This document shows positions 4,604 to 26,690 of a DNA stretch of 27,403 nt, piece after piece (positions within the stretch are counted from its first letter, which is position 1; each line of letters opens with the position of its first letter). A model generated the notes under the pieces. That model was not told where the DNA came from. It was given only the letters and a program-made list of their open reading frames with translations, and did not search any database. Made by a program: the position numbers and the translations under genes. The stretch comes from a virus: positions 1 through 27,403 of IMG/VR virus record IMGVR_UViG_3300022222_000017. The stretch is one strand, 5' to 3'.

Positions 4604-5107
4604 TCAACCTTCCCACTGATCAAGCCTTATTTGTTCAATCACAAAACTGTATTTTCCCAACACGTACCCCACAAAAGCGCTATCACCGATCGCCTGCCCT
4701 TGCGAATTGTCTCGGCTTGGGTAGCCCATCCGTTCTATGGGGTGAATCCCGCCGCAAGCTTTATTCAAAGCAACGCCCCGATAAGTGCCCGTAATGCCGT
4801 TCTCTCTTAGTTTCTTCATGGCAGTAGCGAGAGCCGCGCCCCAATCTTTGAGCAGTCTGTAGCCTTGCACAGCGTTGTTATGGGCAACGATTAGGCGCAC
4901 TTCCGCGATCGCCTCTACCGTTCGCATATTGCCCGTGATGATCTCGTTAGAGCTAACAATTCTTACGATCCCTTTAGGGCTATCGGTTGGCTCGGTTGCC
5001 CATTCTGGGTAGTTCATGGGGAAACCTAGCTGTGTGGCGAGATAGGCATTAATCGCCTCTTCATGGGCAGCTTCTACGGATTGCGAAGGCGGGGGAATAA
5101 TCGGCAT
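4604..5107 (-). CDS. Probable tail terminator/completion protein
   Basis: 167 residues from the ATG at 5107. A longer frame begins at 5182, but its first 25 residues (Pro/Gln-rich) would overlap the divergent plus-strand gene, so the internal Met is preferred. The protein has an alpha/beta pattern: a first helix with EEAINAYLATQLGF, an RIV strand, a VRLIVAHNN strand followed by a long helix (LLKDWGAALATAMKKL), and a closing strand that ends FVIEQIRLDQWEG. This matches the size and layout of the lambda gpU/HK97 gp10 class of tail terminators, which cap the tube and join it to the head. It lies directly upstream of the tube gene. Its start is only 17 bp from the start of the opposite-strand gene at 5125, so it must be transcribed through that gene in antisense. 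Confidence 0.5.
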   Translation of the reverse strand: MPIIPPPSQSVEAAHEEAINAYLATQLGFPMNYPEWATEPTDSPKGIVRIVSSNEIITGNMRTVEAIAEVRLIVAHNNAVQGYRLLKDWGAALATAMKKLRENGITGTYRGVALNKACGGIHPIERMGYPSRDNSQGQAIGDSAFVGYVLGKYSFVIEQIRLDQWEG

Positions 5108-5124
5108 ACAAAAGGGGGTTTGTT

Positions 5125-5403
5125 GTGGACTTTGGACAGGCGATCGCTTTGGCGGGTGGAGTAGGTGGACTGATTGCAACACTATGGAAGGTGTTCAATG
5201 TGATCCGTCAACTGGAGAGGCAAATAGATAAGATTGCCAACGAGCAAGAAGTGCAAGAATTGACGGTTAACGGTACCCGCGAACGGTTGGAACATACCCG
5301 CGATCGCCTGCTGTTAGAGCTAGACATAACACGCGATCGGCTTAACTGTGTTGAGAATTGGCTAAATAAGCACACAGAATTCGAGTCGCACCATAAAAGA
5401 TAG
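5125..5403 (+). CDS. Small membrane-anchored coiled-coil protein (moron candidate)
   Basis: 92 residues on the plus strand, opposite to the late genes. It starts at a GTG with an AGGGGG ribosome site 7 bp upstream. The N-terminus is a short glycine-rich hydrophobic segment (about residues 4-26, IALAGGVGGLIATLW), followed by a long charged helix with coiled-coil character (ERQIDKIANEQEV, then RERLEHTRDRLLLELDITRD). A rho-independent terminator lies 43 bp after the stop in the same direction, so this is a self-contained transcription unit inside the minus-strand late operon. The shape (one N-terminal TM, coiled-coil body) resembles small lysis accessory proteins such as XhlA-like or Rz-like products, and also superinfection-exclusion proteins. 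I cannot choose between these. Confidence 0.72.
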   Translation: MDFGQAIALAGGVGGLIATLWKVFNVIRQLERQIDKIANEQEVQELTVNGTRERLEHTRDRLLLELDITRDRLNCVENWLNKHTEFESHHKR

Positions 5404-5446
5404 GGTATTTTTGTGGGATAACGAGATATGCAGACGCACTGCATTA

Positions 5447-5475
5447 GGCGGCTATCGCTCTAGCCGTCTTTTCTT
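5447..5475 (+). terminator. Rho-independent terminator for the gene at 5125
   Basis: An 8-bp stem, GGCGGCTA at 5447-5454 paired with TAGCCGTC at 5461-5468 with one G-U pair, encloses a 6-base loop and is followed by TTTTCTT. There is no T-run on the other strand, so it acts on plus-strand transcripts. Confidence 0.82.
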
Positions 5476-5483
5476 CGCCTTTG

Positions 5484-5696
5484 TTAATTCTGTTTGATGC
5501 GGGCGATCGCCTCTGCTTCAGTAGTGAAGTAGAAATTCTCCTCTCCTATCACTGCTACCCATTCGCCATCCAACTCGGTAACAAAGCGATCGCTGTCGAG
5601 CTGATTGAATGCATCTGCGTCAGCCTGCATGAATGCATTAATCTTCTGAAGTTCTGATGGGCTGAATATATCCAAGTCGGTTAGGGTTATGGTCAT
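5484..5696 (-). CDS. Small acidic protein, unknown function
   Basis: 70 residues from the ATG at 5696, which has an AAGGA site about 9 bp upstream. A longer frame to 5735 has no ribosome site and would cross a terminator hairpin, so it is rejected. The protein is acidic, with a helical first half (SPSELQKINAFMQADADAF) and a second half that looks like a small beta-hairpin-plus-helix unit (GEWVAVIGEENFYFTTEAE, ending AIARIKQN). That second half resembles the short W-x-A-V domain of small bacterial antitoxin-like or stand-alone proteins, but this is a weak resemblance. It converges with the plus-strand gene at 5125. No function is assigned. Confidence 0.65.
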   Translation of the reverse strand: MTITLTDLDIFSPSELQKINAFMQADADAFNQLDSDRFVTELDGEWVAVIGEENFYFTTEAEAIARIKQN

Positions 5697-5733
5697 CTGA
5701 AAATCCTTTGAATTGCGTATGTACGTACTCACC

Positions 5734-5757
5734 AAAAAACCACCTCGGGGGTGGTTT
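5734..5757 (-). terminator. Rho-independent terminator of the small minus-strand unit
   Basis: Read on the minus strand, an 8-bp perfect stem (AAACCACC / GGTGGTTT, 5757-5737) with a 5-base loop runs directly into six T residues (5739-5734). It stops transcripts from the -10 box at 5965-5960 about 200 nt after initiation, before the gene at 5696. It could act as an attenuator for that gene. Confidence 0.8.
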
Positions 5758-5813
5758 CGGTTCCCATCGATCTCATGGGAGGAGATGACATATTGTTGCG
5801 GTATCCGATGTCA

Positions 5814-5948
5814 TTACCCGTCATCTTTTAGGCGGATGTACCTGACGACTTCCCCCGGCTCGTTCACGCACCGTATGAGGACGACTGGCGGAAGTGGTGC
5901 ATATCCTTTCGAGATCTCAACACCAATGGGAATTTCCGTCCCCTTCAC
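5814..5948 (-). CDS. Candidate 44-residue small protein
   Basis: A GTG-initiated frame of 44 codons with ordinary codon use. It contains the segments IPIGVEISKGYAPLPP and VVRYIRLKDDG, a Pro-rich turn followed by a plausible beta hairpin. It ends TAATGA and is followed by two hairpins, the second a clear terminator. A TATAAT box ends only 12 bp before the GTG, so the transcript would be almost leaderless; the only Shine-Dalgarno-like bases (GAG) touch the GTG. The opposite strand also has an open frame over this stretch, but that one has no credible start signals. The alternative is a non-coding RNA of about 200 nt. I recognise no family. Confidence 0.4.
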   Translation of the reverse strand: MKGTEIPIGVEISKGYAPLPPVVLIRCVNEPGEVVRYIRLKDDG

Positions 5949-5959
5949 CTCATATGCCT

Positions 5960-5965
5960 ATTATA
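5960..5965 (-). promoter_or_regulatory. -10 box of the small minus-strand unit
   Basis: A perfect TATAAT on the minus strand sits next to ATACGGTAT, which repeats the arrangement at the plus-strand promoter near 6288. No convincing -35 hexamer lies 16-18 bp upstream, so an activator or a non-standard sigma factor may be needed. Confidence 0.5.
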
Positions 5966-6295
5966 TACCGTATGGATAGGAATAAAGTGTCATTTTGTGC
6001 GTACTACAGTGTAGTTGTGCCAGTTTGTTCTTATCGGATGGCGTTTATTTATCCCTCCAGACTTATATCTGTACGGTTATCCGACCAAAAATGTATAACC
6101 CAGCCTATTGACAGGTACTTTCATAAATTTACCGTAAAGAATTGTACCAATAAACAGTAGTACAAAGCCCTTTTTCTTTACGGTAAGTTTATGAAGTTCA
6201 AATAAACTACAGCCGGAATTATAAAGAGTTAAAGTGTCACACTACCGCATACTACAAGGGGCTATGGGCTTGCATTCTCTCTAATCTATACGGTA
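5966..6295. promoter_or_regulatory. Cluster of TACCGTA-type operator candidates
   Basis: The 7-mer TACCGTA or its complement TACGGTA occurs at 5966-5972, 6130-6136, 6179-6185 and 6289-6295. Six-base forms lie at 6072-6077 and, inside the 44-codon frame, at 5870-5875. The two outermost full copies touch the -10 boxes of opposing promoters, and the two central ones lie in the arms of a long inverted repeat. AAAGTGTCA is also repeated (5984-5992 and 6231-6239). The stretch 5949-6269 has no other gene. It is AT-rich compared with its surroundings. Confidence 0.55.
6120..6195. repeat. Long inverted repeat (22-bp arms)
   Basis: The left arm at 6120-6141 and the right arm at 6174-6195 match at 21 of 22 positions; in RNA the single mismatch is a U-G pair. 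A second, inner inverted pair (TTGTAC at 6142-6147, GTACAA at 6160-6165) follows directly. Each arm carries one TACCGTA site. It may be a cruciform or looping operator, or a mini-element. There is no flanking T-run, so it is not a terminator. Confidence 0.8.
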
Positions 6296-6299
6296 TAAT
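6270..6299 (+). promoter_or_regulatory. Promoter of the gene at 6326
   Basis: TTGCAT (6270-6275) is followed after 18 bp by a perfect TATAAT (6294-6299). Transcription would start about 20 bp before the ATG at 6326. An ATACGGTAT operator candidate (6288-6296) overlaps the -10 box, so the gene is probably repressed through that site. Confidence 0.65.
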
Positions 6300-6325
6300 T
6301 TCATGATCTAACTATTGAGGATGCC

Positions 6326-6541
6326 ATGCCGACGCGAAAAATAAACCCTAAGAGCCTTCAGAACCTTGAGAAGCGAGGGCGATCGCCGGACTGGGATGAG
6401 CCGAAAGAGCGGCGTTATTTATCCGTTACCGATCTGGGCTTTGATGGGTCGTTGCGAATTGCGCGATCGCTGGGATGCGTTTCAGTGAGTGATCTACTGG
6501 AAAAGATTGGGAGAGGCGCGATCGTTGCTGCAAAAACTTAA
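6326..6541 (+). CDS. Small basic protein, possible regulator (moron)
   Basis: 71 residues, plus strand. The ATG has GAGG 5 bp upstream and its own promoter. The N-terminus is basic and polar (TRKINPKSLQNLEKRGRSP), the middle has RRYLSVTDLGFDGSLRIARSLG, and the end has SVSDLLEKIGRGAIV. Short cyanobacterial proteins with this LSVT-G-S-LLE-IGRG pattern are, in my recollection, common and uncharacterised; the second half could be a small helical DNA-binding fold. It converges with the neck gene, and the two stop codons share the bases TTAA (6538-6541). As the only nearby gene under the TACCGTA sites with a good promoter, it is a candidate autoregulator. That is inference. Confidence 0.72.
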   Translation: MPTRKINPKSLQNLEKRGRSPDWDEPKERRYLSVTDLGFDGSLRIARSLGCVSVSDLLEKIGRGAIVAAKT

Positions 6542-7014
6542 AGCTTGATTCTACGCAGCCGATCAGCCAGCCGCTTACTAGCCTGGTCAATGATGCCGCC
6601 CTTTTGAGCAGAGCCGTCTGGTTTGATGCCTGCAAAATTCTTTTGATCTCTAAATCGTTGTGTCCCATTCCGCGCGATCGCCCTCGCCAAAAGGAACGGA
6701 GGAATATCGTACTTCGCAGCCCACGCCGCCAGATCACTGCCCTTACCCCATGGCGGCATCTTGCCAGCCTTACGCCCTCTAATCCTGAATAGGGCGTTGT
6801 CTGCTGAGTTAGTGATCAGTAGGGATAGGTCGCTTTTTATCTGCACATCCCACCCGCGCTTTAAATCACCCGTCGCACCTTCAGGGGATGCCTCTTGTAA
6901 ATCTGAACCCAACTCAAGGGCAGTATCTTCGATCGCCCCTCTCACTTGACCTCTAAAACCTTGCTCTAACTGAGTCGCTTTAATGTCGGGAACCTTGAGA
7001 GAAATGTTAAACAT
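6538..7014 (-). CDS. gp10-like neck / tail completion protein
   Basis: 158 residues, basic. An N-terminal helix (GFRGQVRGAIEDTALELGSDL) is followed by SPEGATGDLKRGW, a strand (VQIKSDLSLLITNSADNALF), and a C-terminal section with DLAAWAAKYDIPPFLLARAIARNG and a basic helix (RLADRLRRIKL). The order 'helix, S-P-x-x-T-G-x-L-x-x-x-W, strand, asymmetric DLAAW and A-R-A-I-x-x-x-G-T' is typical of the HK97 gp10 family of head-tail joining proteins. It overlaps the upstream gene by 8 bp, which indicates coupling. It is the last minus-strand gene before the moron island. Confidence 0.72.
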   Translation of the reverse strand: MFNISLKVPDIKATQLEQGFRGQVRGAIEDTALELGSDLQEASPEGATGDLKRGWDVQIKSDLSLLITNSADNALFRIRGRKAGKMPPWGKGSDLAAWAAKYDIPPFLLARAIARNGTQRFRDQKNFAGIKPDGSAQKGGIIDQASKRLADRLRRIKL

Positions 7015-18716: not shown

Positions 18717-19616
18717 TTAACTGAAAAATGCCAATTGTTCCAACCGTGCCAGCTTACCCAAGTCTGACCTAATGCCACTAGAACGATCGCACACCCAAAG
18801 CACTTCAGTACGAGCGCGATCGCCCATCTCTTCCTCTGTCCTCATCTTGCCTCTGTCCACCCCGACCCGACCCTTACCACTGGCAGTACAAAGCGTAGAC
18901 ACTTCGATTCTTTGCTGCGCTGATTGGGGTTCTATCGCTTGTGGGTAGCAACTGAGGACGTAAGACGATTTGCAATTATCCAGGGCATCACAAAGGTTTT
19001 CCCAGTCGTCGGTAGTGTAGCCAGCATAATGCCCTTGGTTTGTGCTGATATATGGCGGATCGACAAAATAAAGTGTATGGGCTGAATTCCAGCGCTCTAT
19101 ACATCGCAAGGCATCCTCACTGGAAATATGAACATCTGCCAATCTATCAAGGGCAGCTTCGAGCGATCGCTTTTTGTTGTTCCAGAGGGCGGCTGAGTTC
19201 TTACCAATAACGCTACTACCCCACCCTGCAAGAAGTTTATTCGCAAAACTCATCTGCACTTGCACATAGAGCGCCCATGCAATCGTTAGATCGTCATGCT
19301 CCACAGAAGCCTTGAGGATGTCCTTTGCCTTGCTGTAGTCGCTTTGACTGTACAGAGTTGCATCAATCAACCGCAGCAAATCATCCTTCTGTAACTTGGC
19401 AACACGGTAAAAAGTGATCACCCAATCATTTGTATCATTGATGATTTCTCGATAGTCGTCATTATTACCCACCGATCGCCTTCCCTTGGCAAACAGCACA
19501 GCAGCCCCACCGCAAAACGGTTCACAGAAAACCGTATGAGGGATTTCGTTGAGCAAAGGGATAATGTGTTGGGTCAACTTTTGTTTGCCACCGTAATACG
19601 AAAAGGCGCTTTTCAT
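18717..19616 (-). CDS. D12-class DNA N6-adenine methyltransferase
   Basis: 299 residues. The family motifs are clear: FSYYGGKQKL (residues 5-14), the AdoMet loop CEPFCGGAAVLF (31-42), an NDTND segment (60-64) and the catalytic DPPY (186-189), in the order of alpha-group (Dam-like) enzymes. It transfers a methyl group from S-adenosylmethionine to N6 of adenine. Specificity cannot be read directly; GATC is plausible because HIP1 (GCGATCGC) fills the window and contains it. It overlaps the minor head gene by 4 bp (ATGA) and sits 12 bp before the protease gene, an odd place for a methylase inside a head operon. The role is probably protection from host restriction or regulation. Confidence 0.93.
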   Translation of the reverse strand: MKSAFSYYGGKQKLTQHIIPLLNEIPHTVFCEPFCGGAAVLFAKGRRSVGNNDDYREIINDTNDWVITFYRVAKLQKDDLLRLIDATLYSQSDYSKAKDILKASVEHDDLTIAWALYVQVQMSFANKLLAGWGSSVIGKNSAALWNNKKRSLEAALDRLADVHISSEDALRCIERWNSAHTLYFVDPPYISTNQGHYAGYTTDDWENLCDALDNCKSSYVLSCYPQAIEPQSAQQRIEVSTLCTASGKGRVGVDRGKMRTEEEMGDRARTEVLWVCDRSSGIRSDLGKLARLEQLAFFS

Positions 19617-26429: not shown

Positions 26430-26690
26430 TCAGTCGTCATTCTCATCAGTCTCTTCAACTGGTTTAAAGCCAGCATCCTCTAGTAACTTTTGTTTGAGTG
26501 CTTCTACAGTGATGCCGATATCGTCGGCTCTGTCGGTGAGCATCAGCAATATTTGATCGTCATTCGCTTCAACTCTGGCTTGAAGCGTATTCTGAGCCAG
26601 CCCAGTCTTGCTGGTTCTCTTCATAGCAGCCCACCATATCAGGCGCTTCTCATGCCATGGGGGGAGGTTGATCGGGAATCTTTTAACCAT
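26430..26690 (-). CDS. Ribbon-helix-helix-like small protein
   Basis: 86 residues. It begins with a short strand (VKRFPINLPPWHEKRLIWW) followed by two helices (AAMKRTSKTGLAQNTLQARV), the general layout of CopG/Arc-type DNA-binding proteins (strand, helix, S/T turn, helix). The C-terminus is acidic (EALKQKLLEDAGFKPVEETD). The first gene on the minus side of the divergent control region, it may regulate that region. AGAG lies unusually close to the ATG. The RHH call is by pattern only. Confidence 0.6.
   Translation of the reverse strand: MVKRFPINLPPWHEKRLIWWAAMKRTSKTGLAQNTLQARVEANDDQILLMLTDRADDIGITVEALKQKLLEDAGFKPVEETDENDD

Follow-up and report, generated by a model that had tools for sequence, protein, structure and literature searches.

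A candidate ribbon-helix-helix repressor cassette, probably exchanged between phages, in the late operon of a cyanophage

A linear virus record of 27,403 bases from IMG/VR (IMGVR_UViG_3300022222_000017), termed the window here over its whole length, has an island of DNA at positions 5108–6541 that interrupts minus-strand late genes. HIP1-type GCGATCGC words and cyanobacterial relatives of window proteins point to a cyanobacterial host. The initial annotation viewed the island as a moron, i.e. an inserted unit, with its own regulatory circuit. This raises the question of which part of the island moves, and what regulates it. The anatomy proposed at the outset is as described: four small open reading frames (ORFs), one promoter-like element (in front of the gene at 6326), two terminator-like elements (one belonging to the gene at 5125) and an AT-rich control region. 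The four ORFs have positive codon-usage log-odds (12.0, 14.5, 4.1 and 4.4 for those at 5125, 5484, 5814 and 6326), and the ORFs that overlap them have negative ones. The reading judged probable is that about 5735–6541 represents a horizontally exchanged cyanophage late-operon cassette, where a ribbon-helix-helix (RHH) autorepressor encoded at 6326 would also control the promoter of a divergent cargo gene.

Evidence for exchange comes from two virus contigs, L024 (44.7 kb) and L025 (6.9 kb), found with an alignment-based probe; these and the window are all fragments. Both match window positions 5962–6512, i.e. the control region and RHH gene, with 67% DNA identity (E 1e-33 and 2e-37 to L024 and L025, respectively). 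When viral contigs were searched with only the neck, the tail-tube or the 71-amino-acid (aa) RHH-type protein, nothing was found. The gene contexts are different: in L025 the cassette comes after a lambda-family portal gene (Pfam 9e-99), and in L024 it adjoins a gene with weak resemblance to GH19 lysozymes. Besides the cassette, only two window proteins have relatives at E 1e-3 across the L024 contig: a neck protein (6e-5) and an early-region protein of 86 aa (1e-21). The latter, encoded at 26430–26690 on the minus strand of the window, has an RHH-like N-terminal pattern by eye, and the homolog in the L024 phage (L087, 3301–3074) is 46% identical.

A prophage, L076, has a homolog of the window's 6538–7014 neck gene. 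It overlaps the next gene by ATGA, and therefore there is no insertion at this junction; homology of that next gene with window 4604–5107 could not be shown. Transposon ends and target duplications were sought at the flanks of the cassette, and only 6-mers were found. By sequence comparison, the island is not a single block: only 5962–6512 is conserved outside the window. The moron proposal therefore stands only for the right part of the island (about 5735–6541), which is present in otherwise different phages and absent from the L076 junction; expression apart from the late genes, also expected of a moron, may follow from its promoter- and terminator-like sequences, which are conserved. The cassette appears to travel as a unit among mostly unrelated viruses.

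The divergent gene at the cassette does not travel with it. It encodes 44 aa in the window, 69 aa in L024 and 73 aa in L025, and these are different genes; the 69- and 73-aa proteins have only a C-terminal DEEYFDPELHL segment in common. In all three cassettes the gene is small, monocistronic and followed by its own terminator. Because the divergent gene differs among the three cassettes, the cargo may be considered exchangeable. The terminator scanner missed the hairpin at the end of the window's divergent unit, probably because the stem runs into the T run. This minus-strand unit was also considered as a structured RNA, which was rejected (fold z-score -0.66), and an Rfam scan of the island showed no RNA family.

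The control DNA (5941–6300) has 28–43% GC vs 49.6% for the window. Relative to L025, the RHH gene is 67, 84 and 46% identical at codon positions 1, 2 and 3, and the control region is 68% identical, on a par with codon position 1; just left of the cassette, identity is 38%. The RHH-gene promoter has a perfect -10 TATAAT (6294–6299) and a weak -35 TTGCAT (6270–6275) separated by an 18-nucleotide (nt) spacer, and is kept in L024 and L025. A strict promoter scan of the window did not list it.

Candidate operators were sought in relatives of the RHH-type protein. A palindromic matrix of 23 base pairs (bp) was fitted to the 200-nt upstream regions of 30 non-phage relatives, full-length ones being used, and gave a motif of about CTATNTTATACCGTATAANATAG (log-likelihood 94.7 vs 34–39 in shuffles). 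This family-wide motif falls on both promoters of the cassette: the best match of the whole window (predicted operator 1, Table 1) overlaps the minus-strand -10 TATAAT (5965–5960) of the divergent promoter, and the second best (predicted operator 2) overlaps the -10 of the RHH-gene promoter. The best matches in L024 and L025 are at the corresponding position. Among dinucleotide-shuffled versions of the 629-nt region, the top motif score was reached with a P of 0.0007 and the second score in none of 3000. Four of the five TACSGTA words in the window are in the AT-rich control DNA, with 0.16 expected, and none of 5000 simulations reached four. The hairpin at 6120–6195 carries two operator-like words; L024 and L025 do not have its 3′ TACGGTA arm and keep the inner GTAC stem. 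Thus a regulatory circuit, as first proposed for the whole island, can be predicted for the right part, in which an RHH-type regulator would act at operators on the two promoters, but not for the genes at 5125 and 5484, which have no high-ranking operator match nearby. Elsewhere in L024 (5190–5500), next to the lysozyme-like gene, there are direct repeats with CATCTCTCCCATTGTATA...GTCAATCAA, two of which are strong matches to the operator motif (5200 and 5298).

The 6326 protein matches hypothetical proteins on 13 cyanobacterial plasmids, the best (55% identity) being an RHH antitoxin-like protein of Acaryochloris pREC1. Relatives are found in 54 of 388 cyanobacterial genomes, and the copies in L024 and L025 are 72–74% identical. 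The family is characterized by an N-terminal block, HPNSLANL..GRP, followed by [LI]SVT..GW and SVSELLEKIGRG. Other members of the family match the RelB antitoxin (2.7e-6), RHH_4 (4e-4) and RHH_1 (0.0084) profiles. Structural modelling of the phage protein predicts a beta/helix/helix order, with helices at 36–48 and 54–63 after an extended stretch (helix pLDDT about 88). The protein is thus probably of RHH type and would belong to a family of cyanobacterial plasmids and chromosomes that includes antitoxins paired with ParE/RelE toxins. In some family loci (L023, L030 and others), the RHH module forms the N-terminus of proteins of ~300 aa, which by eye have a membrane segment and resemble a peptidase at the C-terminus.

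RHH regulators commonly repress their own promoter. Most likely, the RHH-type protein binds, as a dimer or a pair of dimers, to the 23-bp palindromes around TATACSGTATA, and as these are predicted to cover the -10 elements of both promoters, the bound protein would repress its own gene and the small divergent gene. The latter would function as cargo, and the cassette may be expressed in the lysogen. One or more further proteins probably bind the conserved control DNA that separates the promoters and contains the weaker sites and the TACTACA boxes.

Several points weigh against this interpretation. The 71-aa protein itself matches no RHH profile, the mean pLDDT of its model is only 72, a moderate confidence, and comparison of the modelled fold gave no match at Z 2 or more; because of this last result, the RHH assignment is inferred from the family. 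Searches of the PDB by sequence and by fold provided nothing informative. As the motif training set includes related sequences as well as AT-rich promoters, significance is overestimated; part of the motif score also comes from the -10 element. In addition, the other viral copies known are two, and these are mutually close: L024 and L025 are 91% identical from the start codon of the divergent gene through the RHH C-terminus, and also have in common a coiled-coil gene elsewhere.

Table 1. Positions in the window of the features of the cassette and of the adjoining genes
Feature	Position	Strand	Basis or remark
RHH-type protein, 71 aa, probable repressor	6326..6541	+	ORF, relatives, model, codon-position conservation
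RHH-gene promoter, TTGCAT-18 nt-TATAAT	6270..6299	+	sequence, three-way alignment with L024 and L025
Predicted operator 1, CTATTATATACCGTATGGATAGG	5958..5980	.	16.6 bits, best family-motif match of whole window
Predicted operator 2, CTAATCTATACGGTATAATTTCA	6281..6303	.	12.1 bits, second-best family-motif match of whole window
Operator-like site, weaker, around TTTACCGTAAAG	6122..6144	.	motif, TACSGTA words
Operator-like site, weaker, around CTTTACGGTAAG	6171..6193	.	motif, TACSGTA words
Large inverted repeat, 22-nt arms 95% complementary	6120..6195	.	fold z-score -6.9, alignment
GTACTACA box	6001..6008	+	in invariant 10-mer; resembles TrcR operator consensus ATACTACA
ATACTACA box	6249..6256	+	in invariant 12-mer; exact reverse complement of TrcR 8-bp site TGTAGTAT
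Third TACTAC box	6157..6162	-	corresponding position in 3 of 3 cassettes
Divergent ORF, 44 aa, variable cargo of window copy	5814..5948	-	ORF, codon usage, comparison with L024 and L025
Intrinsic terminator of divergent unit	about 5758-5735	-	hairpin, -11.6 kcal/mol
92-aa protein, hydrophobic N-terminal helix then coiled coil	5125..5403	+	ORF, sequence features
Terminator of 5125 gene	5446..5469	+	hairpin, -13.5 kcal/mol
70-aa ORF, adjoins cassette	5484..5696	-	ORF, codon usage

Could a host protein also act on the cassette? The invariant runs CGTACTACAG (6000–6009) and GCATACTACAAG (6247–6258) are among the longest noncoding ones across the three cassettes, and no RTACTACA word occurs outside them in the window, L024 or L025. 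TrcR is a cyanobacterial RHH autorepressor, described in Anabaena, that is relieved by translational stress; its footprinted operator is ATACTACACTTGTATTAC, with an 8-bp site, TGTAGTAT, that overlaps -10 boxes, and two Nodularia phages are reported to have TrcR homologs (PMC10272220). The exact 18-bp TrcR operator has a single occurrence in each of 17 cyanobacterial genomes out of 116, and all 12 of the loci read lead into a TrcR-like ORF. The cassette is similar in that predicted sites lie over -10 elements and the TrcR consensus (TGTAGTAT/ATACTACA) occurs in its control region. The phage RHH protein differs from TrcR in its predicted operator, and the idea that it is itself a TrcR was rejected, as TrcR-type proteins from 12 genomes show no blastp or profile similarity to the window protein or its family profile. 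A portable two-input switch can be envisioned, in which the phage RHH repressor would occupy the TATACSGTATA palindromes and TrcR of the host the invariant TACTACA boxes; translational stress would lift the repression by TrcR, and the exchangeable cargo would be expressed when host translation fails. We regard this as a rather unlikely elaboration. Chance could readily produce one exact match of 8 nt in 27 kb, and the three cassettes share common ancestry; host TrcR binding at these boxes therefore stays a lead.

The relationship to antitoxins deserves separate comment. In three Acaryochloris plasmids, a ParE/RelE toxin gene comes after the relative of the phage protein (Pfam ParE_toxin 5e-7 to 6e-12), and two loci from searched genomes (L041 and L042) have the relative and then a similar-sized ORF, as in the Acaryochloris toxin loci. 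ParE toxins are typical partners of RHH antitoxin-repressors, and their presence is therefore counted in favour of a repressor. The same loci, together with three family members that match the NCBIfam RelB antitoxin model, might suggest that the phage protein is a solitary antitoxin that neutralizes or misregulates host ParE/RelE toxins. This is improbable, as the protein stops just past the RHH helices and does not have the C-terminal tail of its toxin-linked relatives, which are 110–120 aa in length; no toxin gene adjoins the 6326 gene or its copies in L024 and L025, and most other relatives are solitary. Thus the cassette is like the type II toxin-antitoxin modules of Acaryochloris plasmids in its RHH family and in a similar upstream palindrome, but unlike them in having neither an adjoining toxin gene nor the toxin-binding tail. 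The Acaryochloris toxin-antitoxin group also has, comparable to the cassette, a conserved stretch that runs divergently from the RHH gene and is terminated. Four loci (L006, L012, L014 and L042) show upstream of the RHH gene a divergent conserved stretch of ~100 nt, GGCATCGCCTTACGGTCGC...CAGGTGGTTGCTAGC, with a terminator-like hairpin at its end; no conserved ORF was seen in it by eye, and no Rfam family was found in the three loci scanned. The Rfam scan of the Acaryochloris loci gave none above gathering scores.

Some RHH proteins, among them ParG, ParR and omega, bind to repeats and also repress the promoter from which they are expressed. With this precedent, the plasmid-borne relatives and the long conserved noncoding region, the RHH protein and its repeat-rich control DNA could be looked at as a centromere-type partition or replication-control element of a phage-plasmid. 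The probability of this is likewise low, since no ParA or ParM was recognized next to any of the three cassettes, and the best sites are on promoters and not in a tandem array. A closer parallel to the proposed autorepressor cassette is the P22 immI region (mnt-arc-ant), which also combines an RHH protein with a divergent promoter. The differences are that the cassette's RHH protein is of another, cyanobacterial family, and that its divergent gene is a short ORF swapped between phages; no ant antirepressor gene was recognized next to the cassette.

The genes at 5125 and 5484 are regarded here as neighbours of the cassette and not as parts of it, since neither has relatives in L024 or L025; no relatives of the 70-aa 5484 protein were found at all. 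The initial annotation considered that a membrane coiled-coil protein, two small proteins and an operator cluster could be one functional system; the corresponding alternative is that the whole island, regulator included, is a lysogen system for exclusion or defence. The genes are adjacent, all four ORFs look coding and morons often encode exclusion functions. Nevertheless, such a system is quite improbable, because only the cassette travels, L024 and L025 carry it without relatives of 5125 or 5484 and no high-ranking operator match lies near these two genes; there is also no convincing PADLOC match for exclusion or defence. The phrog_1009 profile, which would describe the 5125 protein as a membrane coiled-coil protein, matches 12 of 14 control genomes and was rejected as a family label, being unspecific. 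Another alternative, ordinary genes of the late region accompanied by promoter-like and palindromic DNA that arose by chance, is very improbable. Several small ORFs without homologs, frequent in phage genomes, might suggest it; against it are the noncoding conservation in other viruses, the independently derived motif and the finding that L076 has no island behind its homologous neck gene.

The island may also affect late transcription. Transcripts of the minus-strand gene 6538–7014 must pass the RHH antisense DNA and the 5758–5735 terminator to reach the tail-region gene at 5107, and the island is therefore a potential block of the late operon, unless antitermination or a new promoter acts. 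The starts of 4604–5107 (minus strand) and 5125–5403 (plus strand) are 17 bp apart, and each promoter would therefore be inside the other gene or farther off. Among the head genes, 18717–19616 (minus strand) is a gene for a D12-class adenine methyltransferase (Pfam 4e-19). The terminase of the window is 37–39% identical to those of phages such as Pseudoalteromonas phage TW1, and as a query against genome contigs it found no relative. The putative capsid protein has homologs (28–48% identity) in 10 of 388 cyanobacterial genomes; the match in an eleventh genome is weak (E 9e-5, 26% identity).

The repressor cassette proposed here gives an otherwise anonymous moron of a cyanophage a specific repressor and operator that can be tested, and links phage cassettes to a plasmid RHH protein family that includes antitoxins. 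If the TACTACA boxes are bound by host TrcR, expression in the cyanophage would be tied to translational stress of the host, and a two-input switch, if true, would couple phage decisions to the status of host ribosomes. In the cassette as read here, promoter, operator and repressor would move together, and the gene that they control would be exchanged.
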